Shown here piece after piece: positions 17,996 to 60,634 of a stretch of DNA of 64,000 bases; positions within the stretch are counted from its first letter, which is position 1, and the number at the start of each line of letters is the position of its first letter. The notes under the pieces are model-generated. The model saw only the letters and a list, made by a program, of their open reading frames with translations. It made no database searches and was not told the DNA's origin. Source of the stretch: a virus. The stretch spans positions 1 to 64,000 of the IMG/VR virus record IMGVR_UViG_3300017971_007887, one strand, 5' to 3'. A program made the position numbers and the translations under genes.

Positions 17996-18161
17996 TCGTT
18001 CTACCCCCGTGTTTTCCGAATGTCCATCCTATCACCCACCCAGTCGTCCCTCCCAATAACGGCCAAGTCCACGACGGTAAGCCCACATAGTATCCGAACA
18101 CCACGATGCCAAAACCTGCCAACAGTCCGACACCAACAGCCCATATAAAAAATCTGATCAC
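17988..18161 (-). CDS. Small two-helix membrane protein
   Basis: 57 aa from GTG after AAGGAG. Two hydrophobic stretches (FFIWAVGVGLLAGFGIVVFG and WPLLGGTTGWVIGWTF). Upstream of and overlapping the terminase start. Could be a holin-like or superinfection-related membrane protein; unassigned. Confidence 0.65.
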   Translation of the reverse strand: MIRFFIWAVGVGLLAGFGIVVFGYYVGLPSWTWPLLGGTTGWVIGWTFGKHGGRTSG

Positions 18162-50744: not shown

Positions 50745-51052
50745 GGTGCACCAGATTCGTGCAAACGGCGCAGCAGTACCGCCCAGATATAACCCGGACA
50801 CCTGGCCACCACGAACATGCACAAGTCCTTCAGGTCGGTATGATCCAGGCGACACTCCATGCCCTTCTCGTACCAGTCCATCAGGAACTCCAGCGCACCG
50901 GGTACCGTTTCCGTATATGACTTGTTGAAGTTGCCAGATATGTGGCCCTGAATATGCATAACTGTGGCTTGCAGAGCATAACAGAAATCTTGCTCATCGA
51001 CTGCGCCCTTGGCTTTTGCCATGAACAATTTGTAAGCTTCGTGTTCTAACAT
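50741..51052 (-). CDS. Helical hypothetical protein
   Basis: 103 aa, start MLEHEAYKLFMAKAKGAVDE by TGATG overlap. Helical, one Cys cluster (CMFVVARCPG). Function unknown. Confidence 0.65.
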   Translation of the reverse strand: MLEHEAYKLFMAKAKGAVDEQDFCYALQATVMHIQGHISGNFNKSYTETVPGALEFLMDWYEKGMECRLDHTDLKDLCMFVVARCPGYIWAVLLRRLHESGAP

Positions 51053-51342
51053 CACGGCACCTTCTTTCCGACTTGGTATCCCCGCATTTCCAAGAACGCC
51101 GTCGCTGCGATTTCCGCGCAGTCCGGTTGGAACCTTTCCAACAAATCGAACAGCGCTTGCGGAACGCCGACTGTCCATAACTCGTTCGGCATGGCATTCA
51201 TGATCTTCATCCACCAACGTGCACAAGTGGTGATGTATGCGTCTGCCATCTCCTCGTTCTTGTACAGTCGTTTGGACTCTTTGCTAAAGTTCCTGTCGAT
51301 TCTTACCATTACTGGCCTTTCCACTTTCTTTTTCTCGGTCAT
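51052..51342 (-). CDS. Hypothetical protein behind leader module 1
   Basis: 96 aa, start MTEKKKVERPVMVRIDRNFS. Helical with two Cys. First gene after the intein-containing helicase; translated from the conserved GGGAGGTAG leader. Function unknown. Confidence 0.7.
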   Translation of the reverse strand: MTEKKKVERPVMVRIDRNFSKESKRLYKNEEMADAYITTCARWWMKIMNAMPNELWTVGVPQALFDLLERFQPDCAEIAATAFLEMRGYQVGKKVP

Positions 51343-51411
51343 TTTCTACCTCCCTGTTTTGCACGGGTCCATTCCCGCGATAAGACCCTGCAGGTTTTTA
51401 CACCTGCAGGG
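51343..51411 (-). promoter_or_regulatory. Two-hairpin leader module 1
   Basis: On the minus strand: hairpin 1 (10-bp stem, loop GTAAAA) starts about 8 bases after the helicase stop. Hairpin 2 has stem CGCGGG/CCCGTG and hexaloop AATGGA. Then GCAAAACAGGGAGGTAG and the ATG of the 51052 gene. Confidence 0.75.
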
Positions 51412-51418
51412 CAATCGT

Positions 51419-54136
51419 TTATAACAAACCACCTTCCTGCAAAAATCTGCTCGGTGACAGCGGCCTGACCTTGCCGCCCATCAACGCGCCCCTCGGACTG
51501 GTAATCATCAGATGGTCCCGCGCCCTGGTAACGCCCACATAAAACAATCGGCGTTCCTCAGCCGGCCCGACACCATCACCCTCAAATCCATCGGCCCTGG
51601 CATGGGGAAGCACCATCTCGCAGGCACCCGCCAAGAATACCACCGGCCACTCCAGACCCTTGGCCTTGTGCAAGGTGCTGATCCACACCGCGTCCGGCTG
51701 CTCGTCGTCCTCCTTGGCCTTCCTCTTGGTGTCCAGGATGTTGTCCACGTACTCCAGCATCTCCTTGGCCGTCTTGAACCTGCCGGCCGTTCGGCACAGT
51801 TCCCGAAGGTTGCTCAGCTTGCTGTTCTCCGCGGTGTCGGTGCCCTCGTCCTTGATGATCCACTCTTCGTATCCGCTCACCTCGATCAGCTTGGCCAGCG
51901 CCTGCGGAAGCACGCTCTGCTCGGCGTCGTTCGGCTCGATGTCGTCTCGCAGATTCTGTACCAGGCTGACGAACTCCTCGACCGCTCTTTCCTGCTTGCT
52001 CCAGATGCCCAGATCGTACATCCGAACATCGGAAGCTACCTGCATGAAGTTACCCGCCGACTCCATCTTGTCGATGGTCTTCTTGCCGATGAACCGCCAC
52101 GGTCGGTTGATGGCCCGTTTGGCGCTCTCCACGTCGTTCTCGTCCACGGCCACCCGCAGGTACGCCAGGATGTCGGCCACTTCTTTGCGCTTGTAAAACT
52201 CGGTGCCGCCGACTACCACGTGCGGGATTTTCTCCCGGATGCAGACTTCCTCGAACGCCCTGCTCTGCGCGTTGGTGCGATACAAGATCGCCATGTCCTT
52301 CCAATCGACTCCGTCCTCGTGATAGGCCCGGATGCGCTCGACCACCGTCTCCGCCTCCGCGTCCATGCTTTCGCAGGACACGTACTCGACCGGATTGTTG
52401 TCCGGCCTGGTGGCCACGTTGGTCTTGGTGATCCGGTCCGGCTCGTTGCCGGTGATCACTTGGTTGGCGATCTCCAAGATCTGCGGAGTGCACCGGTAGT
52501 TGTGCTCCATGCGGAACACCCGCGCGTTGAACCGCTCCTCGAACGTCAAGGTGTACTCCGGCACGCTCCCGCGCCATTCATATATGCAGTTGTCCACCAC
52601 GATGCCGTCCGCCACGTAGTTGTGATGCTCAGCCACCTCTAGGGATACGACTTCACCACTGTACTCCTCACAAAACTTCTTATGCACCGTTGTCCAACCA
52701 TTGCCCGAAAGATGAACCTGCATCATGCCAGGAATGATGTTCGCCGCGTATGCTCTAAATGTTTTGCTGCCATGTCTTCCACCCGCGCGTCCCCATTTCG
52801 ATTCCTTGCTTTTGCTAGATGGTGGAAACGGCCACAATGGACAGTGCTCCTGTAATTCGAAATCATCGAACAGAACATCGACAGTGCTGATTTTTCTAAC
52901 ATACCTGAACAAATCAGCCAGCCGTACTTGACCCAAAACATGCTTGGTCTGCGACTTAAAGCAAGCAGTTGGGATGCGATATTGTAAAGATATTTTTTGT
53001 TCCTGCAATGCCGCATCTCCCTTATTGTCGTAAACCGAAAGTATCCAAGCAGCGTCCGCTTCTTCCAGTCGTGCACGTTGTCCCAGGTGAAATGCACCGT
53101 CCATGTTGAACATCTGGCACCAGCCCACCCTGTAGTCGTCGCCCTTTTTCATCAGGTAGCACGCCCATCGTTCGGTTTTCTTGTCCGCCCATCTGACTGG
53201 AATCTTGTGATCTGATGTCGCCCTGGTTGAACAGTGACCTGCAAGAATCGTGTACAGGTCGCCATAGTACGAACGCCGTTTGGTGCGAACAACTCTCCTG
53301 TGCCCACCCACCTTACCATTGTGAGACTGGAACACCCGAACCATGTCACCGACTTCTAAGGAACCAAGTTCGACTATTCCGTCTGCAGTTTCTACTTCGG
53401 TGTCCGGTGGCTGGCACTGGTCGTCGTCACCGACCACCAGCAAGACCTTGGCCTTCTCTGCCAAGATCTTCATCAACTCGTACTGAGCCGCGTTGCTGTC
53501 CTGGAACTCGTCCACGATCACGTGATCGAACATGCCCTGCCACTTGCCGCGGGCATGCGGGTCTTCCTGCAGATACCAAACCGCCCCGGACATCATGTCG
53601 TCGAACGTCAGCAGTCCCAGCAAGTGCCGGCACCGCTCGTACTTGCGATAGACCTCGACGTACCGATGGTCCGGGTGACTGGCGTCCTCCGGCTTGACCA
53701 GGGAGCCCTTGCAGTTGCTGATGTACTGCTCCAGGTCGGTGATGTCGGCGTCTTCCCACTCCATGCCGAACACCCCGCTGTTCTCGACGGCTTCCTTTTT
53801 GCACCAGCCCAAGATGTCCTTGAGCACATAGTGCATCTTGTTGCCGTCCACCTTGTACTCGGCTTCGGGGCTGCCGTCGCGAACGATCTTGTATCCCAAG
53901 CTGTGCAAAGTGCGCACGTCCACTTGGGGTATGCCGATCCGCTCCTGCATCTCCAACGCCGCGTTCTTGGTGAACGTGGTGCACAAAATCCGCTTGGCCG
54001 AGCAGCCCTCGTCCACTCGCTTCCTGACCCAGCACTCGACGGTGTGTGTCTTTCCCGAGCCCGCGACCGCGCAAACGATTGCGTTGCCCTCGGTGTGGTT
54101 CACCACTTCTTGCTGTGTCTCGTTCAGCTTTTTCAT
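51419..54136 (-). CDS. UvrD/PcrA-like SF1 helicase precursor containing an intein
   Basis: 905 aa precursor. Helicase parts: Walker A AGSGKT (residues 25-30), TTFTKNAALEM (Ia), VIVDEFQDSN (II), VVGDDDQ, then after the intein CIYEWRGS (III), HNYRCTP (IV), WISTLHKAKGLEWP (V) and YVGVTRARDHL (VI). Removal of residues 241-516 restores GDDDQCIYEWRG, where most relatives have Ser. Mature protein about 629 aa. Likely roles are displacement of proteins from DNA or support of recombination and repair. Leader module 2 precedes it. Confidence 0.92.
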   Translation of the reverse strand: MKKLNETQQEVVNHTEGNAIVCAVAGSGKTHTVECWVRKRVDEGCSAKRILCTTFTKNAALEMQERIGIPQVDVRTLHSLGYKIVRDGSPEAEYKVDGNKMHYVLKDILGWCKKEAVENSGVFGMEWEDADITDLEQYISNCKGSLVKPEDASHPDHRYVEVYRKYERCRHLLGLLTFDDMMSGAVWYLQEDPHARGKWQGMFDHVIVDEFQDSNAAQYELMKILAEKAKVLLVVGDDDQCQPPDTEVETADGIVELGSLEVGDMVRVFQSHNGKVGGHRRVVRTKRRSYYGDLYTILAGHCSTRATSDHKIPVRWADKKTERWACYLMKKGDDYRVGWCQMFNMDGAFHLGQRARLEEADAAWILSVYDNKGDAALQEQKISLQYRIPTACFKSQTKHVLGQVRLADLFRYVRKISTVDVLFDDFELQEHCPLWPFPPSSKSKESKWGRAGGRHGSKTFRAYAANIIPGMMQVHLSGNGWTTVHKKFCEEYSGEVVSLEVAEHHNYVADGIVVDNCIYEWRGSVPEYTLTFEERFNARVFRMEHNYRCTPQILEIANQVITGNEPDRITKTNVATRPDNNPVEYVSCESMDAEAETVVERIRAYHEDGVDWKDMAILYRTNAQSRAFEEVCIREKIPHVVVGGTEFYKRKEVADILAYLRVAVDENDVESAKRAINRPWRFIGKKTIDKMESAGNFMQVASDVRMYDLGIWSKQERAVEEFVSLVQNLRDDIEPNDAEQSVLPQALAKLIEVSGYEEWIIKDEGTDTAENSKLSNLRELCRTAGRFKTAKEMLEYVDNILDTKRKAKEDDEQPDAVWISTLHKAKGLEWPVVFLAGACEMVLPHARADGFEGDGVGPAEERRLFYVGVTRARDHLMITSPRGALMGGKVRPLSPSRFLQEGGLL
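52589..53416 (-). mobile_element. Intein in motif III of the helicase
   Basis: 276 residues (241-516). Begins with Cys in CQPPDTEVETADG (block A), has the TSDH block B (RATSDHKIPVRW), and ends with EVAEHHNYVADGIVVDN before Cys+1 (blocks F and G, terminal Asn; His in EHHN). No LAGLIDADG motif. The middle has WILSVYDNKGDAALQEQKIS followed by LQYRIPTACF, which may be a remnant or a different endonuclease-like helix pair. The DNA is A+T-richer than the flanking helicase, fitting later insertion. Confidence 0.9.
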
Positions 54137-54205
54137 TTCCTACCTCCCTGTTTTGCCCAGGTTCATTCCTGGGATATAAACGGTCACGCCTTTTACACGT
54201 GACCG
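54137..54205 (-). promoter_or_regulatory. Two-hairpin leader module 2
   Basis: Hairpin 1 is CGGTCACG with its complement around a GTAAAA-containing loop. Hairpin 2 is CCCAGG/CCTGGG with hexaloop AATGAA, followed by GCAAAACAGGGAGGTAG and the helicase ATG. Confidence 0.75.
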
Positions 54206-54211
54206 CCTTGT

Positions 54212-54487
54212 CTACGTTGCTGGATGTAACGAGCAATCGTCGCGGTGTCCCGCGCCTTCCCAGCAAAAGCACTGATCTGACAACCCGAAATCCCATGCCT
54301 CCAATGCACACACGACCGAGCTGCCGTCGTCAAACCGGAATTTGACGGGATCGTCCGTGTGATCGCCCGAGCGAATTTCTTCCGCCACGATTGCCAGCGC
54401 TTCGCACCAGTCGCGGTCTCCAACAGACCAGCACTGGCCATCCAAGTCCTCGAAAAACTGCTTCGCAAATTTTCTTGCTTGGCTCAT
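54212..54487 (-). CDS. Small acidic hypothetical protein
   Basis: 91 aa, start MSQARKFAKQFFEDLDGQCW behind the leader ribosome site. Cys/His-containing C-terminus (CFCWEGAGHRDDCSLH) suggests a metal site. Function unknown. Confidence 0.65.
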   Translation of the reverse strand: MSQARKFAKQFFEDLDGQCWSVGDRDWCEALAIVAEEIRSGDHTDDPVKFRFDDGSSVVCALEAWDFGLSDQCFCWEGAGHRDDCSLHPAT

Positions 54488-54559
54488 AACTACCTCCCTG
54501 TTTTGGCCCTCCCCTTTTTGAAAACGACCGGGCAAGGAAGGGAGGAACCCTGCCCGGTC
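54488..54559 (-). promoter_or_regulatory. Leader module 3 (hairpin 2 degenerate)
   Basis: Hairpin 1 is GACCGGGCA with its complement and a 16-base loop. Instead of hairpin 2 there is AAAAAGGGGAGGGC, then CAAAACAGGGAGGTAG and the ATG at 54487. Shows that the linker and ribosome site persist when the hairpin is lost. Confidence 0.6.
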
Positions 54560-54625
54560 TTGCCCCGCCGCAACAGTGCGGCAGACTCCGGTGGCCGATG
54601 TTATCCGGCCACTCGGGGCTATACC

Positions 54626-54964
54626 TCAGTCCATGATGTAAATGACACGCGCGTTCCAGTCTTTCAACACGTTCCTGGCGGCGACGGTTGCCGATGCCCG
54701 CTTGTTCGCCTGGCCATGCGTGTAGCTAAGCCCATAACCGCGACCGTACCACCGACCACTATATCGATACCCACCAAACTGCTTGAACAAGGCATCCAGC
54801 TTCTTGCTCAGTCTAGAGCCGAGCGGACAATTCTTGCCGACCGGGATCAACACAAAATCCATGTTGCAGGTCCCACCGTCGTCAGTTTGACTGGCCGCAA
54901 AACTCGCCGCCCTGTTCGCGTTCCTGAGATCTTGGACTAACTTTTCTTCTTGTTTTTTGTCCAT
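54626..54964 (-). CDS. Hypothetical protein
   Basis: 112 aa, start MDKKQEEKLVQDLRNANRAA. N-terminal helix, then FGGYRYSGRWYGRGYGLSYT rich in Gly and Tyr, which may bind nucleic acid. Function unknown. Confidence 0.65.
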   Translation of the reverse strand: MDKKQEEKLVQDLRNANRAASFAASQTDDGGTCNMDFVLIPVGKNCPLGSRLSKKLDALFKQFGGYRYSGRWYGRGYGLSYTHGQANKRASATVAARNVLKDWNARVIYIMD

Positions 54965-55029
54965 CACTACCTCCCTGTTTTGCGCCGCTCAATTGCGGCG
55001 ATATAGTCTCCCGGGATTTTACTCCCGGA
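54965..55029 (-). promoter_or_regulatory. Two-hairpin leader module 4
   Basis: Hairpin 1 TCCGGGA, loop GTAAAA, TCCCGGGA. Hairpin 2 CGCCGC/GCGGCG with hexaloop AATTGA, then GCAAAACAGGGAGGTAG and ATG. Confidence 0.75.
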
Positions 55030-55037
55030 AAACTGTC

Positions 55038-55442
55038 TTACTCCTCTTCCGGCCACTTCTCCTTGATGGCCACTGCGATGTACCTCACCGACCGGAACGG
55101 CCGCGGTTCGATCCGATCCAACACTTTGAATTTCAGCACCCTGGACACCGACCACTTCTTCGGTCGCCCTCCTAACGCGCGCTCCCATTCTTCCCTGGCC
55201 CGGTCGATAGCGGTCTGCGGTTTTCGATGTCGTCCCCACGCGCCCTGCCCGTATTCGTTGACTAGATGCACCTCGTATTGGATCGAGCAGTTGTTCAACA
55301 TGTTGCGAACAAACCGCCGTCCATTTTCAAATTCCAAATACTTCTCCAGGCGCCGTTCCACTGTCCAACAATTGACGCAGCGTTTCGTGCCAGTGTAGTC
55401 GGTCGGTTCTCCGCACGTCTTGCAAGGCACCTTGACCGTCAT
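55038..55442 (-). CDS. Zinc-ribbon protein
   Basis: 134 aa, start MTVKVPCKTCGEPTDYTGTK by TGATG overlap. CKTCGEP and RCVNCWT form a zinc ribbon at the N-terminus; the rest is mixed alpha/beta. Coupled to the 55442-56296 gene and so not preceded by its own leader. Function unknown. Confidence 0.7.
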   Translation of the reverse strand: MTVKVPCKTCGEPTDYTGTKRCVNCWTVERRLEKYLEFENGRRFVRNMLNNCSIQYEVHLVNEYGQGAWGRHRKPQTAIDRAREEWERALGGRPKKWSVSRVLKFKVLDRIEPRPFRSVRYIAVAIKEKWPEEE

Positions 55443-56296
55443 CACATCACCTCGTACTTCAGAATCTTCTTCTTGGGGTTGTACAACACCTTCACGTCCG
55501 GGCCGTCCTCGCCCAGTTGGGTCCGGGCGCTCAGGGTGTACCCGGCCTTCTTGTTCCTCTTGCCGGTCTCCTCTCCAAGCTGCACCAAGCCGGTCTCCCC
55601 GGCCTTCACACCCACCTGCTCGCGCTTGCGGGCCCTGGCGCTGGCCTTGACTTCCTTGGCCGGCTTGCTGACCTTCTCCACGCCGTTGACACCGGATACC
55701 TGGGCCGCCCGTTCCACCTTCTTGGGCCGTCCGGGCGACCGGGACTCGATGCCCCGTTCCGCACGCTGCTTTTTGGCCACCTGCTTCAACTCCGCGGCTG
55801 TCGCGCCGTCGGCAGCCATGCGGGTCAACTCCTTGCGGGCGTCCTCGTCGCTCGCCCGGGCGATCACGTAACTGATGCTCGGGCCGAACCTAGCGGCCAT
55901 GTTGCGGTCCATCGCCCTGGCGACCGCCATCATGTTGTACGCCGTTTGCGGCGTTCGGATCTCCTTGATGGACGCCAGGTACTTGCTGAACGACTCATGT
56001 CCGCCGTACTTCCAAAGCATCTTGTCCTGCACCTGCAGGAGCGCCTGACCGACTTCGAAAAACCGCAGCCCGATCTCCCGGGTTCCGGCCTTTACCTGCT
56101 CGGTCAGGTCTTCCAGCTCTTTCTGATTCCTGGTGTGATTTTCAGAGCCCGGGGTGTTGTCGATCACCGTGATGCGCCGTCCGGTGTCCGTCACCTCGCC
56201 GGTCTTTCCGTTGACGACTTTCAATGTGTCCTGCTCGGTGGCCGGCTTCGTTTTCATGCCCGGCTTCGATCCGTACTTCCGTTTCGCCTGTGCCAT
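55442..56296 (-). CDS. DNA-associated regulator-like protein, related to 41632-42666
   Basis: 284 aa, start MAQAKRKYGSKPGMKTKP. Middle helices FEVGQALLQVQDKMLWKYGG and IRTPQTAYNMMAVARAM match the layout of the 41632 gene; then a basic SPGRPKK AT-hook-like stretch and a beta-rich C-terminus. Looks like a DNA-binding protein; function unknown. Confidence 0.6.
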   Translation of the reverse strand: MAQAKRKYGSKPGMKTKPATEQDTLKVVNGKTGEVTDTGRRITVIDNTPGSENHTRNQKELEDLTEQVKAGTREIGLRFFEVGQALLQVQDKMLWKYGGHESFSKYLASIKEIRTPQTAYNMMAVARAMDRNMAARFGPSISYVIARASDEDARKELTRMAADGATAAELKQVAKKQRAERGIESRSPGRPKKVERAAQVSGVNGVEKVSKPAKEVKASARARKREQVGVKAGETGLVQLGEETGKRNKKAGYTLSARTQLGEDGPDVKVLYNPKKKILKYEVM

Positions 56297-56365
56297 GTTC
56301 CTACCTCCCTCGTTTGCCCGCTCCATTGCGGGATAACAGTTCGCAGAAGTATTCCCTCTGCGAAC
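56297..56365 (-). promoter_or_regulatory. Two-hairpin leader module 5
   Basis: Hairpin 1 GTTCGCAGA with its complement. Hairpin 2 CCCGC/GCGGG with hexaloop AATGGA, then GCAAACGAGGGAGGTAG (two changes from consensus) and ATG at 56296. Confidence 0.75.
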
Positions 56366-56370
56366 CTGCG

Positions 56371-56502
56371 CTATTTCCTCGGAGGGGCCGGCCACACGTC
56401 GAGCAGCCCTTCCCGAATCTGCGCGCCCTCCAGGACCCAACAACCAGCGCCTACGTACACCCACGATTTACCGTCCATGATTTTCTTCTCACCAATCTTC
56501 AT
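56371..56502 (-). CDS. Very small hypothetical protein, 43 aa
   Basis: Start MKIGEKKIMDGKSWVYVGAG with ATGA coupling; TAG at 56371. Beta-hairpin followed by helix. Real by its coupling and position; function unknown. Confidence 0.6.
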   Translation of the reverse strand: MKIGEKKIMDGKSWVYVGAGCWVLEGAQIREGLLDVWPAPPRK

Positions 56503-56777
56503 TTCGTCACCCTCCTGACCACTTCTGTAGCAACCGCCTTGGACTCCTTTTCGTCCAAACCGAATTCAAAATTGATGATTCTTCCCAGGTAAAGCACCGC
56601 CCATTTTGGCGGGTCGTTGGGATACTGTGCGATCCTGATCTTCGCCAAGGTACCCAAGAACACCGACCGTCGGGCGAAGTCTTTGACCAGCTCTGGATCC
56701 ACCTGGCACCGCTTGCAGTAACTCTCGCTCTGGTTTTTCTTTCGTCCGCAGGTGCATTTGCTTGAATTGACTGTCAT
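56499..56777 (-). CDS. Zinc-ribbon hypothetical protein
   Basis: 92 aa, start MTVNSSKCTCGRKKNQS chosen by AAAGGAACTATC and ATGA coupling. CTCGRKKNQSESYCKRC is a zinc ribbon; helical C-terminus. An upstream in-frame ATG reading MARDINRSKG lies inside the preceding gene and is probably not used. Confidence 0.65.
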   Translation of the reverse strand: MTVNSSKCTCGRKKNQSESYCKRCQVDPELVKDFARRSVFLGTLAKIRIAQYPNDPPKWAVLYLGRIINFEFGLDEKESKAVATEVVRRVTK

Positions 56778-56923
56778 GATAGTTCCTTTCGAACGGTTGA
56801 TATCACGTGCCATTTAATGGCGCCAATTTTCTTCATGGTCACATCCTCATGACCGATTATTGTTTTTACGATAAAAAATTCACCAGTCTTCAACGTATAA
56901 ACAATCTTTCGAAAATCGACCAT
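56774..56923 (-). CDS. Very small hypothetical protein, 49 aa
   Basis: Start MVDFRKIVYTLKTGEFFIVK directly behind the module 6 ribosome site; stop coupled by ATGA. Beta-rich. Supported by the conserved leader although short. Confidence 0.65.
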   Translation of the reverse strand: MVDFRKIVYTLKTGEFFIVKTIIGHEDVTMKKIGAIKWHVISTVRKELS

Positions 56924-56992
56924 AACTACCTCCCTGTTTTGCCCGGGTTCATTCCCGGGATAGAACGGGGCCGGAATTCTATCCCGACCCCG
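56924..56992 (-). promoter_or_regulatory. Two-hairpin leader module 6
   Basis: Hairpin 1 CGGGGTCGG-type stem with complement. Hairpin 2 CCCGGG/CCCGGG with hexaloop AATGAA, then GCAAAACAGGGAGGTAG and ATG at 56923. Confidence 0.75.
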
Positions 56993-56997
56993 CCAAC

Positions 56998-57945
56998 TCA
57001 GTCGCTTCCGTTGGTGGGCTCTTGTTCGTCGAACTTCCGATCCAAGATGTAGTCGACCGCCTTCTGGGCCCGTTGCGCCGCGCTGACGATCAGTTTAGGA
57101 TCGTCCTTCAGCCGCTTGGCCCAGCTTTTGATGTATGCCGCGCTGTTGCGGTCCACCTTCGGACGGCGCAGTCCGAACTGCGCGTCCAACATGGCGGCCC
57201 CGATTTCCGCGACCAACTCTTCCTTGCTGTAATCCTCGCTGCCGAACGGGTTGATCCTGGCGTCGTAGTCGAACCGCGCACAACGTCCCGGGGTGCCGGT
57301 GCTGTGAACAGTCTCGTGCGACCGGGTGCGGACATACTCCACGCTGCTCTTGTACTGGCTTTCGGACGGGATGGTGATCGAATCGTCGGCCGGCCGATAA
57401 AACGCCCGGTCCGAGCCTTCCTTGACCTCGATGCCCTCGCGCTTGATGTAGTCGACAAACGCCATGGTCGATTCCTTCACCGACTTGGCCAACGCCTTGC
57501 CGTTTTTCTTGGGCTTGTTTTTGGCCCGAGCCTCTTTGAGCCACTTGGGGTACTTGCTCTTGGGAACGGTCGTTTGCTCCAACGACCAGACCCGGTAGTA
57601 GAACATGGTGAAGCTCTTGCGAACCTCGTCCGTCTCGGCGCCCTTCTCGTCCTTGACCTTGTACCCGCTGATTTTCCAAAACACCACCGGAATGGACTTC
57701 TCGCCCTTCTTGATCCGGCCGCCCGCTGCGTTGATCATCTTCCTGGTGAGCCAGGGTCCTTCCCGGCCGGTGCTCAGGGTCATCAGCCAATTGAGACCCC
57801 GGTACTCCTTGCCGTTCCACCGATGGGTGGAAGTGCCGTTGGAAATCCACGGCTTCTCCCATGGGGGAATGTCGTCGTCTTGCATGGCCTGCACGAAAAA
57901 ATCGGTCACCTTCTGATACGGATAAGACACTTTGCCATTCTTCAT
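56998..57945 (-). CDS. ArdC-like antirestriction protein
   Basis: 315 aa. N-terminal domain (DDDIPPWEKPW followed by YRGLNWLMT) and the pGEKSIPVVFWK segment are typical of the ArdC/TraC ssDNA-binding domain. The C-terminal zincin part has HETVH (210-214) and EELVAEIGAAML. ArdC-type proteins protect incoming DNA from restriction. It sits in the small-gene early-like block behind leader module 7. Confidence 0.88.
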   Translation of the reverse strand: MKNGKVSYPYQKVTDFFVQAMQDDDIPPWEKPWISNGTSTHRWNGKEYRGLNWLMTLSTGREGPWLTRKMINAAGGRIKKGEKSIPVVFWKISGYKVKDEKGAETDEVRKSFTMFYYRVWSLEQTTVPKSKYPKWLKEARAKNKPKKNGKALAKSVKESTMAFVDYIKREGIEVKEGSDRAFYRPADDSITIPSESQYKSSVEYVRTRSHETVHSTGTPGRCARFDYDARINPFGSEDYSKEELVAEIGAAMLDAQFGLRRPKVDRNSAAYIKSWAKRLKDDPKLIVSAAQRAQKAVDYILDRKFDEQEPTNGSD

Positions 57946-58013
57946 AACTACCTCCCTGTTTTGCCCGCATCATTGCGGGATAGAGGCGCGACCCGGGAAT
58001 TACCCGGGCCGCC
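57946..58013 (-). promoter_or_regulatory. Two-hairpin leader module 7
   Basis: Hairpin 1 GGCCCGGG-type stem around a TAATT loop. Hairpin 2 CCCGC/GCGGG with hexaloop AATGAT, then GCAAAACAGGGAGGTAG and ATG at 57945. Confidence 0.75.
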
Positions 58014-58021
58014 CTGCCGGT

Positions 58022-58345
58022 CTAGTCGGGAATGGATGCCCACTTGCTGACCGAGCGCCGATAGAAGGCGCCGTTCTTTACCATCCAGTCGGCTTCCTTG
58101 CGGGCCTTGTCCATGATCTTCCGGCGCGCCACCCTCTCGTCGCCGTCGTCGCCACAGAAATGACCGATCATCAGGTTGATCAGTTCCTGCCTGATGTGCT
58201 GCAGGCTGCCGACGCAGTTCCAGTCGCCGTCGCGGCCCAGCTCCTCGGACACCTCAGCGACGACCTTCAGCAGTCCGCTGATCTCCTTGGTCGCCTCGGA
58301 CACCAGGTTGATCCTCCGCTTCTCGTCCTTGTTCAGCTTCGCCAT
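58022..58345 (-). CDS. Helical hypothetical protein
   Basis: 107 aa, start MAKLNKDEKRRINLVSEATK behind module 8. Helical throughout. Function unknown; first coding gene after the non-coding gap, possibly the first gene of an early transcript. Confidence 0.7.
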   Translation of the reverse strand: MAKLNKDEKRRINLVSEATKEISGLLKVVAEVSEELGRDGDWNCVGSLQHIRQELINLMIGHFCGDDGDERVARRKIMDKARKEADWMVKNGAFYRRSVSKWASIPD

Positions 58346-58418
58346 CTCGTACCTCCCTGTTTTGCCCTGACGTGATTGCCAGGGATAGGACCCGGTGACC
58401 CGTTACGGTCACCGAGCC
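58346..58418 (-). promoter_or_regulatory. Two-hairpin leader module 8
   Basis: Hairpin 1 CGGTGACC with complement, loop beginning GTAA. Hairpin 2 CCCTGGC/GTCAGGG (one G-U pair) with hexaloop AATCAC, then GCAAAACAGGGAGGTAC and ATG at 58345. Confidence 0.7.
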
Positions 58419-58427
58419 AGACACCTA

Positions 58428-58456
58428 CTCGTTCTGTTTTGCCCGGCGTCGCCGGG
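58428..58456 (-). promoter_or_regulatory. Orphan leader-like hairpin
   Basis: CCCGGC, a three-base loop, GCCGGG, then CAAAACAGAACGAG: the leader linker with a degraded ribosome site and no ATG behind it. Probably a decayed copy. Confidence 0.5.
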
Positions 58457-58459
58457 ATG

Positions 58460-58481
58460 GTTGTAAAACTCGTTTTACAAT
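58460..58481. promoter_or_regulatory. Palindrome family B, copy 3
   Basis: GTTGTAAAAC, TC, GTTTTACAAT; nearly perfect inverted repeat just downstream of the tRNA-like T-arm on the minus strand. Confidence 0.6.
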
Positions 58482-58482
58482 T

Positions 58483-58557
58483 TGCCCCGTCCGGGAATCG
58501 AACCCGAACAAACCCTCCAGGGGGACACAAGCCCGGACGAACCGGGCTGTTCCAACA
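58483..58557 (-). ncRNA. tRNA-like 3' end (T-arm) without a matching 5' half
   Basis: The minus strand reads TCGGGTTCGATTCCCGG, a perfect T-arm with TTCGATT loop, followed by ACGGGGC and A as an acceptor 3' strand. No GCCCCGT-like 5' strand lies at tRNA distance; GCCCGGT at 58547-58541 pairs 6 of 7 but is too close. Two further hairpins precede the T-arm. A degenerate tRNA, a tmRNA-like end or a tRNA mimic are possible. Confidence 0.35.
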
Positions 58558-58639
58558 CACGTCGATAGACGTGCACGCACCATGTGACTCGACCACGTTT
58601 TTGCCCGGAGTGTGCCAGGCCGATTCGCGTCAAGTCGAT

Positions 58640-59000
58640 GCGATTTAAAACTAGGGAGGAGGTAGATTTCTAAATCGCCGGCTGCAACCTAAAACCGTCG
58701 GTCGGTTCGCCTCTTCGATTTCGTTCTCCAGGAATTCCCCGGCTCCCTCCTTCAAGGGTTCACCGCGCTCTTTCGAGCGGCGGTCCTGTCTAGACCGCCT
58801 CGCTTCATTCCTGGTTCCTGGTTCCCCGTGGGGTCCTGCCAGCGCCGTTCTTGCTGCCCGCTGGCACCCGGCTAGTTCGCCGGTTGGGCTGTTCGGGTCG
58901 CCCCTGCGCTCACCCTTCGATTGTCAGCCGCACCTAAAAACGCCGGTCGCGATTGCACGCAGGGCTAAGCCGCTCGTCCGGTTCGTGATGTCGGATGCTT
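58640..59000 (-). other. GC-rich hairpin-dense block without a convincing gene
   Basis: About 360 bases. Minus strand features: CGCTC-GAAA-GAGCG with a GNRA tetraloop extended by an outer stem, GGCGGTC/GACCGCC, CCGGC/GCCGG, TGCCAGC/GCTGGCA, and two copies of a CGACCG-NCG-TTTTAGGT motif. Short frames are open in all phases but none has a start, ribosome site and length to convince; one (GEPLKEGAGEFLENEIEEAN) looks protein-like and could be a gene remnant. Either a structured RNA or decayed coding DNA. Confidence 0.35.
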
Positions 59001-59098
59001 CCGGAGTCGCCGCTGTTGGCGCTCGACGGACGGTGGGGACCGTGCCCATGACCGCTGCCGCCTTGCTTGCCCTGCCGCTCTGTGAGGTGCTTGCTCAT
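58934..59098 (-). CDS. Doubtful small ORF, 54 aa
   Basis: ATG at 59098 just downstream of the operator and a TAGAAT hexamer, reading MSKHLTERQGKQGGSGHGHG. His/Gly-rich, no ribosome site. Kept only because of its position behind a promoter-like element. Confidence 0.25.
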   Translation of the reverse strand: MSKHLTERQGKQGGSGHGHGPHRPSSANSGDSGSIRHHEPDERLSPACNRDRRF

Positions 59099-59102
59099 AT
59101 GA

Positions 59103-59140
59103 CCATTCTACCAGGTTTACATTGTAAACCAAGGAAAATT
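59103..59140 (-). promoter_or_regulatory. Operator and promoter candidate
   Basis: GGTTTACATTGTAAACC at 59114-59130 is a perfect 17-bp palindrome. On the minus strand TTGGTT, 16 bases, TAGAAT form a possible promoter overlapped by the palindrome. Transcript would run into the hairpin-rich block. Confidence 0.55.
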
Positions 59141-59320
59141 CCGACAAAAAAACTAAGTAATTGCGGTCAGTTGTATGAATATTTTGGACGAGGGGTTGTT
59201 CCGTCTGTGGGACGCCTGCGACGACTGTGGTCACCCTGGCTGCCAGGGACGATTGTGGTCTGCCTGTGGTCCTCCTAGCATCCGTTGTGTGGTGCGCCAC
59301 AGCTCGCTGGCAACCCAGGC
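59141..59320. other. Gap between HTH gene and operator
   Basis: 180 bases. Contains a perfect CCCTGG-CAG-CCAGGG hairpin and a T7 run on the minus strand near 59145. A plus-strand frame from 59175 (MNILDEGLFRLWDACDDCGH) is Cys-containing but lies antisense to the HTH gene and lacks a ribosome site. Confidence 0.4.
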
Positions 59321-59560
59321 CTACCGGCCTGGCCGGCCAAAAAATCCTACAACCTGGTTGAGCCGCCGTAGGTTTTCTGTGGATGGAGCGGTGCTGCCGC
59401 GCAACCACTTGCCGACTGCCACCCGACTGGTATGGACAGCCCGAGCGACGCCGGCCAAGCTACCGAGCAGATGCACCGCGCAGCGCACCAGCATTTCCAC
59501 CTGACCGACCGGCATGCGCTTCTGCTGGCCATCATCGTCTTCATAGATCACTGCAGCCAT
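59321..59560 (-). CDS. Cro/CI-type HTH regulator
   Basis: 79 aa, start MAAVIYEDDDGQQKRMPVG after GGGAGG. Residues 28-70 form a Cro/XRE-like helix-turn-helix (LAGVARAVHTSRVAVGKWLR then PSTENLRRLNQVVGF). TTACAAATGTAA lies upstream of its start and GGTTTACATTGTAAACC downstream; it is the best candidate to bind them and possibly the dispersed ACA-N-TGT palindromes. Confidence 0.75.
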   Translation of the reverse strand: MAAVIYEDDDGQQKRMPVGQVEMLVRCAVHLLGSLAGVARAVHTSRVAVGKWLRGSTAPSTENLRRLNQVVGFFGRPGR

Positions 59561-59604
59561 CTCTGCCTCCCTTCCCCACCGGAGGCCAGGATGCCACAGT
59601 CAGG

Positions 59605-59616
59605 TTACAAATGTAA
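59605..59616. promoter_or_regulatory. Palindromic operator upstream of the HTH gene
   Basis: TTACAAATGTAA, half-site TTACA as in the 59114-59130 operator, 45 bases upstream of the HTH start. Suggests autoregulation. Confidence 0.5.
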
Positions 59617-59620
59617 AGAG

Positions 59621-59986
59621 CTACTTCTTGGTCAGCAGAACGACACCACCACCCACGAGTACGCCTGCAACCAGAGCGGTCGCGGCGATCAGAATCACAG
59701 TACCGGTGGACCAGGTCTCAGAGTTGACCTGGTGCTTGCCCCTGCACAGGTCCAGATCCTTTCGGCACCGGGCCTCGCTGCGGCCCGCCTCGAGAACCCG
59801 CTCCATCTGCTCCCGAGTGAAGCAGCCCTTCTCACCAGGCTCACACCACTTCTTGCGGACTAACGAAGGCGGCCCCGGCGTGGTGCCTTCACCACCGTGC
59901 TCCTCTACCGGGGCCGGTTTCCTTTCCTGTCCGCTAGCCGGTGCCACCATCAGCACGGTAGCGATCAAGCATGTCAAGAATCTCAT
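59621..59986 (-). CDS. Secreted or membrane protein of the lysis region (spanin candidate)
   Basis: 121 aa, start MRFLTCLIATVLMVAPASG with a signal-peptide-like N-terminus, a Pro-rich linker, four Cys in the middle (WCEPGEKGC, RCRKDLDLC) and a C-terminal membrane helix (TVILIAATALVAGVLVGGGV). Its start lies inside the upstream gene, as Rz1 does in Rz, but it has no lipobox. Outer spanin or another envelope protein. Confidence 0.5.
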   Translation of the reverse strand: MRFLTCLIATVLMVAPASGQERKPAPVEEHGGEGTTPGPPSLVRKKWCEPGEKGCFTREQMERVLEAGRSEARCRKDLDLCRGKHQVNSETWSTGTVILIAATALVAGVLVGGGVVLLTKK

Positions 59987-60182
59987 CGTGCAGCTCCTCA
60001 TCGCTCAGGGCGCGGATCTCCTCCCGGTCGTTCAGCCTGGCGATTACGTCCAGGGCTGCGTCGCGCTCCGCCCTGAACCTGGCCTTGTCCCTGCGCTCCT
60101 TGACCACCCACAGGACCAGGACGGTGCCGCCCACCAGGACGGCCCCCGCGATCACGACCACCAGCAGGTTCTGCCAGGCCAT
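59934..60182 (-). CDS. Rz-like inner-membrane spanin candidate
   Basis: 82 aa, start MAWQNLLVVVIAGAVLVGGT by TGATG overlap with the holin gene. One N-terminal membrane helix and a charged helical ectodomain (KERRDKARFRAERDAALDV), the i-spanin layout, overlapped by the next gene. Confidence 0.6.
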   Translation of the reverse strand: MAWQNLLVVVIAGAVLVGGTVLVLWVVKERRDKARFRAERDAALDVIARLNDREEIRALSDEELHDEILDMLDRYRADGGTG

Positions 60183-60634
60183 CACCCGCTCGCCTTGCGG
60201 ATCTTCCTGGCCTCCACCTTGTCGGCGAACTTGGCCCGGCTCTCCTTGCTGAAGATCAGCTTGCCGAACGCGCTCCACATCAGGGTCGCCGGTCCAGAGG
60301 CAGTGAACGACTGGTAGATCGCAACACCCACGTCAACATCCGGCTTGGCCAACTCCACAGCGCAACTGCACAAGACTCCCACGACAGGCGCCAGGAATGC
60401 CAACCACAGCGGTTCCTTGACGATGAACCTGGCGATGGCCCACACCGCAAGCATGATGGCGGTGGCCCCCACAACCCACCAGTCGCCCCCCTGGAACGCG
60501 CTGGCCAGGAACGCCAAAACACCGCCAAGGTTCTCGTCGGGATCCAAGCTGGTCTCCTGCGCGATCACCGCCACCGAGTACATCAGCACCCACAACCCAG
60601 TCAGCATCAGCATCAGCCTCTTTATTTCCTTCAT
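60182..60634 (-). CDS. Holin candidate
   Basis: 150 aa, start MKEIKRLMLMLTGLWVLMYS. Three or four hydrophobic segments (LMLTGLWVLMYSVAV, WWVVGATAIMLAVWAIARF, LWLAFLAPVVGVLCSC) and a basic C-terminus. Followed by spanin-like genes. No endolysin is adjacent; the NlpC/P60 domain at 30.3 kb could serve. Confidence 0.65.
   Translation of the reverse strand: MKEIKRLMLMLTGLWVLMYSVAVIAQETSLDPDENLGGVLAFLASAFQGGDWWVVGATAIMLAVWAIARFIVKEPLWLAFLAPVVGVLCSCAVELAKPDVDVGVAIYQSFTASGPATLMWSAFGKLIFSKESRAKFADKVEARKIRKASG

Follow-up and report, generated by a model that had tools for sequence, protein, structure and literature searches.

Two-hairpin leaders with a covarying stem recur at gene starts in one block of a virus record

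Results

Leader copies in one gene block

The stretch of DNA analysed here (the window) consists of bases 1-64000 of the 71,522-base virus record IMGVR_UViG_3300017971_007887. In one block of this record, genes on the minus strand are preceded by a leader composed of two hairpins and a conserved tail. A reading of the sequence alone (hereafter the sequence-only reading) had placed the same module before eight minus-strand genes, and we indeed found eight starts with the tail (58345, 57945, 56923, 56296, 54964, 54487, 54136 and 51342), seven of which have the complete leader. In these seven the order is hairpin 1 (H1), 1-7 bases, TAT, hairpin 2 (H2), CAAA(A)...AGGGAGGTA and ATG. The block encodes an ArdC-like antirestriction protein, a UvrD-like helicase and adjoining small proteins without known function. 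The copies and their genes are as follows (bp, base pairs; aa, amino acids; ORF, open reading frame):

58346-58417, minus strand: leader copy 1; H1 58390-58417, TAT 58385-58387, H2 58365-58384 (7 bp, loop AATCAC), tail CAAAACAGGGAGGTACGAG
Start 58345, minus strand: copy 1 gene; 107 aa, no Pfam or PHROGs match
57946-58010, minus strand: leader copy 2; H1 57990-58010 (core), TAT 57980-57982, H2 57964-57979 (5 bp, loop AATGAT), tail
Start 57945, minus strand: copy 2 gene; ArdC-like antirestriction protein
56924-56993, minus strand: leader copy 3; H1 56964-56993, TAT 56960-56962, H2 56942-56959 (6 bp, loop AATGAA), tail
Start 56923, minus strand: copy 3 gene; short ORF, missed by the gene caller
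56297-56368, minus strand: leader copy 4; H1 56337-56368, TAT 56333-56335, H2 56317-56332 (5 bp, loop AATGGA), tail CAAACGAGGGAGGTAGGAAC
Start 56296, minus strand: copy 4 gene; 284 aa, function not known
54965-55034, minus strand: leader copy 5; H1 55005-55034 (loop GTAAAA), TAT 55001-55003, H2 54983-55000 (6 bp, loop AATTGA), tail
Start 54964, minus strand: copy 5 gene; 112 aa
54488-54620, minus strand: copy 6, altered; tail CAAAACAGGGAGGTAGTT kept, no H2 with six-base loop, gene start 54487
54137-54208, minus strand: leader copy 7; H1 54178-54208, TAT 54174-54176, H2 54156-54173 (6 bp, loop AATGAA), tail
Start 54136, minus strand: copy 7 gene; UvrD-like helicase
51343-51412, minus strand: leader copy 8; H1 51385-51412 (loop GTAAAA), TAT 51380-51382, H2 51362-51379 (6 bp, loop AATGGA), tail
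Start 51342, minus strand: copy 8 gene; 96 aa
58434-58456, minus strand: decayed copy without a gene; 6-bp stem, three-base loop, CAAAACAG, no Shine-Dalgarno sequence

Every H2 in the seven complete copies has a six-base loop of the form AATNNN, identical to the loops listed in the sequence-only reading, on stems of 5, 5, 6, 6, 6, 6 and 7 pairs. Its 3' arm ends right before CAAA in all seven, so that H2 abuts the tail in seven of the eight leaders. A strong Shine-Dalgarno sequence lies 5-7 bases 5' of the start codon after an A-rich linker, with H2 directly against that linker. TAT, AAT, CAAA and AGGGAGGTA are kept in 7/7 complete copies; the H1 arms, delimited by hand and of about 10-14 pairs as folded, show no consensus on inspection. 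TAT precedes H2 in every complete copy. That H1 loops are often GTAAAA was overstated, as this is the loop in two of seven copies (54964 and 51342) and lies inside a seven-base loop in a third (54136). Both the copy that has lost H2 (54487) and the decayed, gene-less one (58434-58456) are present as described; further hairpins stand upstream in the former, one of 12 bp followed by GTTTTC.

The 71.5-kb record holds seven exact copies of CAAAACAGGGAGGTA, all on the minus strand, and no one-mismatch copy elsewhere; the eighth tail (56296) departs from it at two bases, and GCAAAACAGGGAGGTAG is exact in five of the eight leaders. A search for the tail 16-mer with up to three mismatches gave nine matches against 0.57 expected, namely the eight leaders and one three-mismatch site at 18002. 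Covariance model R1, built from four leader copies, recovered the three non-seed complete copies in the whole record at E-values of 4e-11 to 4e-8. It also matched copy 6 through its tail (E 0.0006) and the decayed copy at 15.2 bits (E 0.068), and its three remaining matches have E >3. By the exact-copy search and the R1 search the element is restricted to the 51.3-58.5 kb block.

RNA structure of the leader

The sequence-only reading held that the H2 stems differ among copies yet stay complementary, and took this as evidence for RNA structure. Covariation, folding energy relative to other gene starts and strand asymmetry all back that claim. In a hand alignment of the seven copies of this one genome, 41 of 41 H2 cells are standard pairs, and pairing is retained at the four stem positions that vary. 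Counted from outside, pair 2 is C-G, G-C or G-T, pair 4 is G-C, C-G, A-T or T-A, pair 5 is G-C or C-G, and pair 6 is G-C, C-G or G-T; pairs 1 and 3 are invariant, and pair 7 exists in one copy. When 3' arms were exchanged among the four 6-bp copies, 16.7 of 24 pairs formed on average (maximum 19), compared with 24 of 24 in the native combinations. A stem of at least five pairs with a six-base loop ends at 1.5% of window positions, as against seven of the eight leaders.

Folding of the 65 bases 5' of the Shine-Dalgarno region, scored against 60 mononucleotide shuffles each, gave z values of -3.7 to -7.9 (mean -5.1) for the eight leaders, compared with a mean of -0.57 (standard deviation 1.2) for 76 other gene starts. 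H1 and H2 taken jointly are more stable in sense than in antisense RNA in 7/7 complete copies, and 17 of the 139 predicted leader pairs are G-U; the opposite strand would have A-C mismatches in their place. Since the sense folds are stronger and the G-U pairs lie on the sense strand, mRNA rather than DNA is favoured as the selected form. The A-rich linker is predicted to be largely single-stranded, with unpaired probabilities of 0.61-0.98 across the seven complete copies.

A count of perfect stems of at least 6 bp near the Shine-Dalgarno sequence is not a specific measure. Such stems occur at 15/59 genes of the window versus 7.7% at random, and elsewhere at 8/23 (L076), 8/21 (L183), 8/22 (L185), 7/25 (L168), 10/49 (Wentworth), 5/41 (Wollypog), 2/40 (Eleri), 2/24 (L075) and 3/24 (L079), with 8-17% at random across these sources.

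Known families were absent. Rfam (4227 models) gave no match at the curated cut-off in the window or in six loci of other phages. Its sub-threshold matches in the block, at E up to 10, were Termite-leu (twice), PhotoRC-I and one miRNA, all far below their cut-offs (the best, Termite-leu, 25.4 bits against 51). A scan of 50900-60500 that excludes loops >8 listed 10 terminator-like sites, none of them a leader hairpin, and the number of such sites is on par with shuffles (9.7).

Search for relatives

Further covarying copies, which the sequence-only reading had proposed to seek elsewhere, did not appear: scans of IMG/VR aimed at the element or at genes of the block gave no recognisable carrier among the matches listed. 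Neither protein queries in IMG/VR nor megablast of 48-64 kb against annotated phages revealed a relative of the window phage. Identity to annotated phages, among the matches listed, was 22-27% for the family B DNA polymerase (PolB), 23-29% for the capsid protein and 34-35% for ArdC. Because no H2-bearing relative was found, the H2 covariation rests on seven copies of one genome.

A relaxed TATC-H2-tail pattern matched at least 119 stretches of IMG/VR, and filtering all of these for stems left no recognised relative; the 13 best represent one kind of AT-rich sequence with weak folds. CAAAACAGGGAGGTA occurs in 36 IMG/VR stretches, mostly chance-like and, by a rough estimate, not in excess of chance for a 15-mer. 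In 12 chosen records, near-copies of the tail 12-mer number 5-7 each in G001-G005, two in G008 and one in each of the other six. At E up to 1, R1 matched other phages 17 times, and the six alignments examined rest on the tail. Those records were chosen by the tail, so that sharing it does not count as separate evidence that they are related. The open-access literature searched held no description of such leaders.

Hairpin leaders of other designs in other phages

Other phages bear differently built hairpin leaders at the same position, and two further kinds were found outside the window. One of them, which we call class B, occurs in G001, G002/G004, G005, G027 and G028. Its inner stem is separated from an outer stem, mostly CGGG/CCCG, by a two-by-two internal loop, often UA/CU, and a second short hairpin often follows; the leader ends in ACAGGGAGG or ACCAGGGAGG followed by the start, and precedes many genes. 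G001, G002/G004, G005 and G027 have proteins in common with one another; for the G027 SNF2-type helicase and the G001 DUF2786 protein, most matches are in phages of Actinobacteria. Comparison of the window's called proteins with ten fetched stretches (G001, G002/G004, G005, G027, G013, G014, G028) gave no match at E 1e-3.

The DUF6011 gene, protein-matched across four phages, has a hairpin leader in 4/4. The DUF2786 gene has one in 3/4, with a weak hairpin only in G005; here three phages are protein-matched and the G027 gene was likened by eye. Class B model R2, built from five copies, matched 58 times across 16 sources at E up to 1. Once rows on the minus strand and the overlapping loci (L167, L077) are set aside, 33 distinct plus-strand rows remain. 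In these, 337 of 341 cells are paired, compared with 1000 shuffles that averaged 262 and reached at most 279. This score leans toward structure, because the alignment was made to fit the structure and the five seed copies are among its rows. One outer-stem pair is GC in 26 rows, CG in four and AT in three. The sense strand is more stable in 25/33 rows and the antisense in 8/33. G028 contributes six R2 rows, one of which clearly stands before a second hairpin, a Shine-Dalgarno sequence and a start, others being followed by further hairpins. In several class B copies, judged by eye, the hairpin that comes next seems to compete with the outer stem for one strand. The class B family of the actinophage-like records L075, L076, L079, L183 and L185 is strongly covarying and has no Rfam match at cut-off.

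At E up to 1, R2 matched nothing in the window and nothing in L044, and at 0.01 nothing in the whole record. It also gave none in G013 at E 0.01, and none at E up to 1 in stretches of the isolated phages Wentworth and Wollypog or in the whole of Eleri. In two actinobacterial genomes R2 gave no match, an absence that is uninformative; the class B pattern gave 10 matches in bacterial genomes, judged by eye to be chance. A relaxed class B scan of viral sequence returned 12 stretches, of which five were already known and seven were unrelated by eye.

The third kind of leader, in the fetched stretch of G013 (L168), consists of plain GC-rich hairpins directly before the Shine-Dalgarno sequence of five genes; CGGCAAAGCTG stands 5' of the hairpin in three of these. 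In addition, the four similar records L104, L147, L088 and L135 each show one leader in which GGGTGGTGGCG-loop-CGCCACCACCC, altered at a base in one of them, stands before ACAAAACAGGGAGGGAATAAATG.

Discussion

A model for the leader and its alternatives

The leader is a real, structured element confined to one gene block. The sequence-only reading had further taken it for the binding site of an RNA-binding regulator or a processing site that sets expression of the block. Of this, the RNA structure stands, and a recognition site fits the fixed TAT and AAU amid diverged H1 and H2 stems, while a reader, cleavage or an effect on expression lies beyond what sequence can tell. The explanation we tentatively favour, at somewhat less than an even chance, is that generic isolation and specific reading of TAT/AAU by a shared factor act together at translation initiation, a level suggested because the leader adjoins the Shine-Dalgarno sequence. 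Each copy would then serve a single cistron of a polycistronic phage mRNA, probably an early one, as its structured 5' leader. What the sequence itself supports is that both hairpins are able to fold in the mRNA-sense strand, that H2 stays paired as its letters change, and that it adjoins the A-rich linker and the strong Shine-Dalgarno sequence. H1 might close off the preceding cistron, and H2 might separate the start region from upstream sequence, giving each gene its own ribosome landing site. A single shared factor, encoded by phage or host, would read the fixed TAT between the hairpins and AAU in the H2 loop, and the eight genes, for the antirestriction protein, the helicase and small proteins, may thereby be translated as one set; activation, repression or processing by this factor are all possible. 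Early expression is suggested because the block directly follows a stretch without called genes (58346-59933) and holds an antirestriction gene.

Several observations weigh against this explanation. Stable upstream folds are not unique to the leaders, since four of the 76 other gene starts also have z < -3, and 10 of the 15 window genes with a perfect stem near the Shine-Dalgarno sequence are non-leader genes. The mean unpaired probability of the Shine-Dalgarno sequence is 0.19 in copy 2 and 0.57 in copy 8, compared with 0.67-0.93 in the other five complete copies and 0.57 in 54 other genes. H2 appears dispensable at 54487, because that gene keeps the tail without it. The fixed TAT and AAU may partly reflect descent, since the seven copies stand in one genome and possibly have a recent common ancestor. 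The shared reader is a putative factor that we infer from the fixed bases, and early timing is deduced from gene content and position.

It is possible, if unlikely, that the leaders are structural insulators only, in which hairpins shield the ribosome-binding site from upstream sequence and offer a single-stranded standby region with no dedicated factor. In its favour, other phages also have hairpins 5' of the Shine-Dalgarno sequence, with sequences of their own; the A-rich linker is predicted to be largely single-stranded; and structured standby sites can, by the account in PMC3936740, alter initiation rates over 100-fold. As in such standby sites, structure and single-stranded stretches 5' of the Shine-Dalgarno sequence would set the initiation rate here; unlike that general, biophysical effect, the leaders are a repeated family with fixed loop bases. 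A purely structural role would seem insufficient, because TAT, AAT, CAAA and AGGGAGGTA are kept in every complete copy though such a role does not need them; TAT and AAU in particular stay fixed while the stems and H1 have diverged, and the Shine-Dalgarno sequence of copy 2 is predicted to be paired. Unlikely too, and slightly more so in our judgement, is a processing site at which a host or phage RNase would cut at TAT between the hairpins or within H1, the cistrons thereby gaining protective 3' and 5' hairpins. The conserved TAT between two hairpins, 1-7 bases after an H1 of about 10-14 pairs, speaks for it; however, by the usual yardstick H1 is short for an RNase III site and has no conserved internal loop. 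The early mRNA of phage T7 is cut between cistrons by RNase III, at sites that are longer, contain an internal loop and have no fixed geometry relative to the Shine-Dalgarno sequence. The leaders resemble these as intercistronic hairpins in what may be an early polycistronic mRNA, and differ in being shorter and in their fixed Shine-Dalgarno geometry.

Two further explanations seem to us very improbable. If the element acted as DNA, whether as an operator, a terminator or a recombination boundary, recombination at the repeated tail could shuffle cassettes, and the 12-bp hairpin with GTTTTC in copy 6 would be in keeping with this. However, the G-U pairs on the mRNA-sense strand and the weaker antisense folds in 7/7 copies argue against it, as does the lack of leader hairpins among the terminator-like sites (loops >8 lying outside that scan); a double-strand operator is unlikely because H1 has no consensus and the H2 stems vary at four positions. 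The same low probability applies to a leader peptide, with a mini-ORF starting in the loop, or a riboswitch, with a preQ1-I-like hairpin and A-rich tail. Three copies only (56923, 54136 and 51342) read ATG plus seven codons to a TAG at the Shine-Dalgarno sequence, whereas the loop ATG is in another frame at 57945 and 56296 (running into the gene at the latter) and is missing at 58345 and 54964. The order of hairpin, A-rich tail and Shine-Dalgarno sequence recalls preQ1-I, but no Rfam family reached its gathering score in the window, and on inspection the loop cannot pair with the tail as the preQ1-I architecture, as generally understood, requires.

Comparison with known systems

The closest known system is that of the start-associated sequences (SAS) of Cluster K mycobacteriophages, described in 2011 with their function given as not known (PMC3203893). 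According to that account, 11-19 copies per genome of a 13-base SAS (GGGATAGGAGCCC) lie at gene starts, and about half have 17-bp inverted repeats with a consensus just upstream (the extended SAS), for which RNA hairpins are said to have little support because departures generally do not support pairing. Like the SAS as described there, the leaders are multi-copy, stand at the starts of a subset of non-structural genes (here solely at 51.3-58.5 kb) and share a Shine-Dalgarno core; unlike them, their stems vary with pairing kept, and loop, linker and geometry are fixed. The Cluster K 13-mer itself was not found near the starts, where the tail is CAAAACAGGGAGGTA or a variant (the comparison covered the start regions), and in place of conserved inverted repeats the leaders have H1 arms without consensus and H2 arms that covary. 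The T4 protein RegA acts on about 30 mRNAs at their translation initiation regions; its sites are A+U-rich and reported as having no clear secondary structure (PMC3014915). One factor would likewise serve many initiation regions here; unlike the RegA sites in that account, the leaders place two hairpins 5' of the Shine-Dalgarno sequence and are highly structured by folding z, which does not fit an unstructured RegA-type operator.

A broader proposal, which we regard as rather doubtful, is that unrelated phages repeatedly evolved lineage-specific families of structured leaders at many gene starts, each with its own recognition bases and trans-acting reader. Three independent cases would then be the window with its AAU hexaloop, the actinophage-like group with a UA/CU internal loop and second hairpin, and G013 with plain GC-rich hairpins. 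If true, this would amount to a post-transcriptional regulon written in RNA structure. The window leader is a variant of start-associated leaders whose function we infer, and its interest is raised by the other hairpin-leader families in other phages. Multi-copy start leaders with pairing apparently under selection make the idea of translation control directly testable, and the class B leaders supply a covariance model and several phages for comparison.

Other features of the record

Genes of the window were called with a simple, self-made caller that missed some short ORFs, and almost all lie on the minus strand. Among ten large proteins, PHROGs matches include a T4-type major head protein, a head maturation protease, a portal, a diverged terminase, a family B DNA polymerase, an SbcC-like protein and a DnaB-like protein. 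Genes for capsid, protease, portal and terminase are found within 0.1-18 kb, and tail-like genes, recognised by eye only, at >60 kb. In the UvrD-like helicase ORF, about 300 residues at ~52600-53400, between the two helicase domains (241 and 542), are intein-like in appearance.

Immediately ahead of the block, 58346-59933 has no gene by the simple caller, yet contains a 79-aa ORF (59321-59560, minus strand) that by eye resembles a small helix-turn-helix regulator and whose ATG is preceded by GGGAGG. On the minus strand at 58483-58505, GGGTTCGATTCCCGGACGGGGCA looks like the T arm and acceptor end from the 3' part of a tRNA gene and might be what is left of an attachment site; ARAGORN reported no tRNA. 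Two inverted repeats also lie there, TTGTAAAA-CGAG-TTTTACAA at 58461-58480 and GGTTTACA-A-TGTAAACC at 59114-59130.

A different 15-base inverted repeat, TTAAACA-S-TGTTTAA (S = C or G), has eight copies, at 26, 5901, 11491, 30329, 38025 (with one change), 46697 and 48414 of the window and at 6879 of L044, several of them just 5' of a Shine-Dalgarno sequence. It is more like a DNA operator for a phage regulator, because its sequence is conserved rather than covarying.

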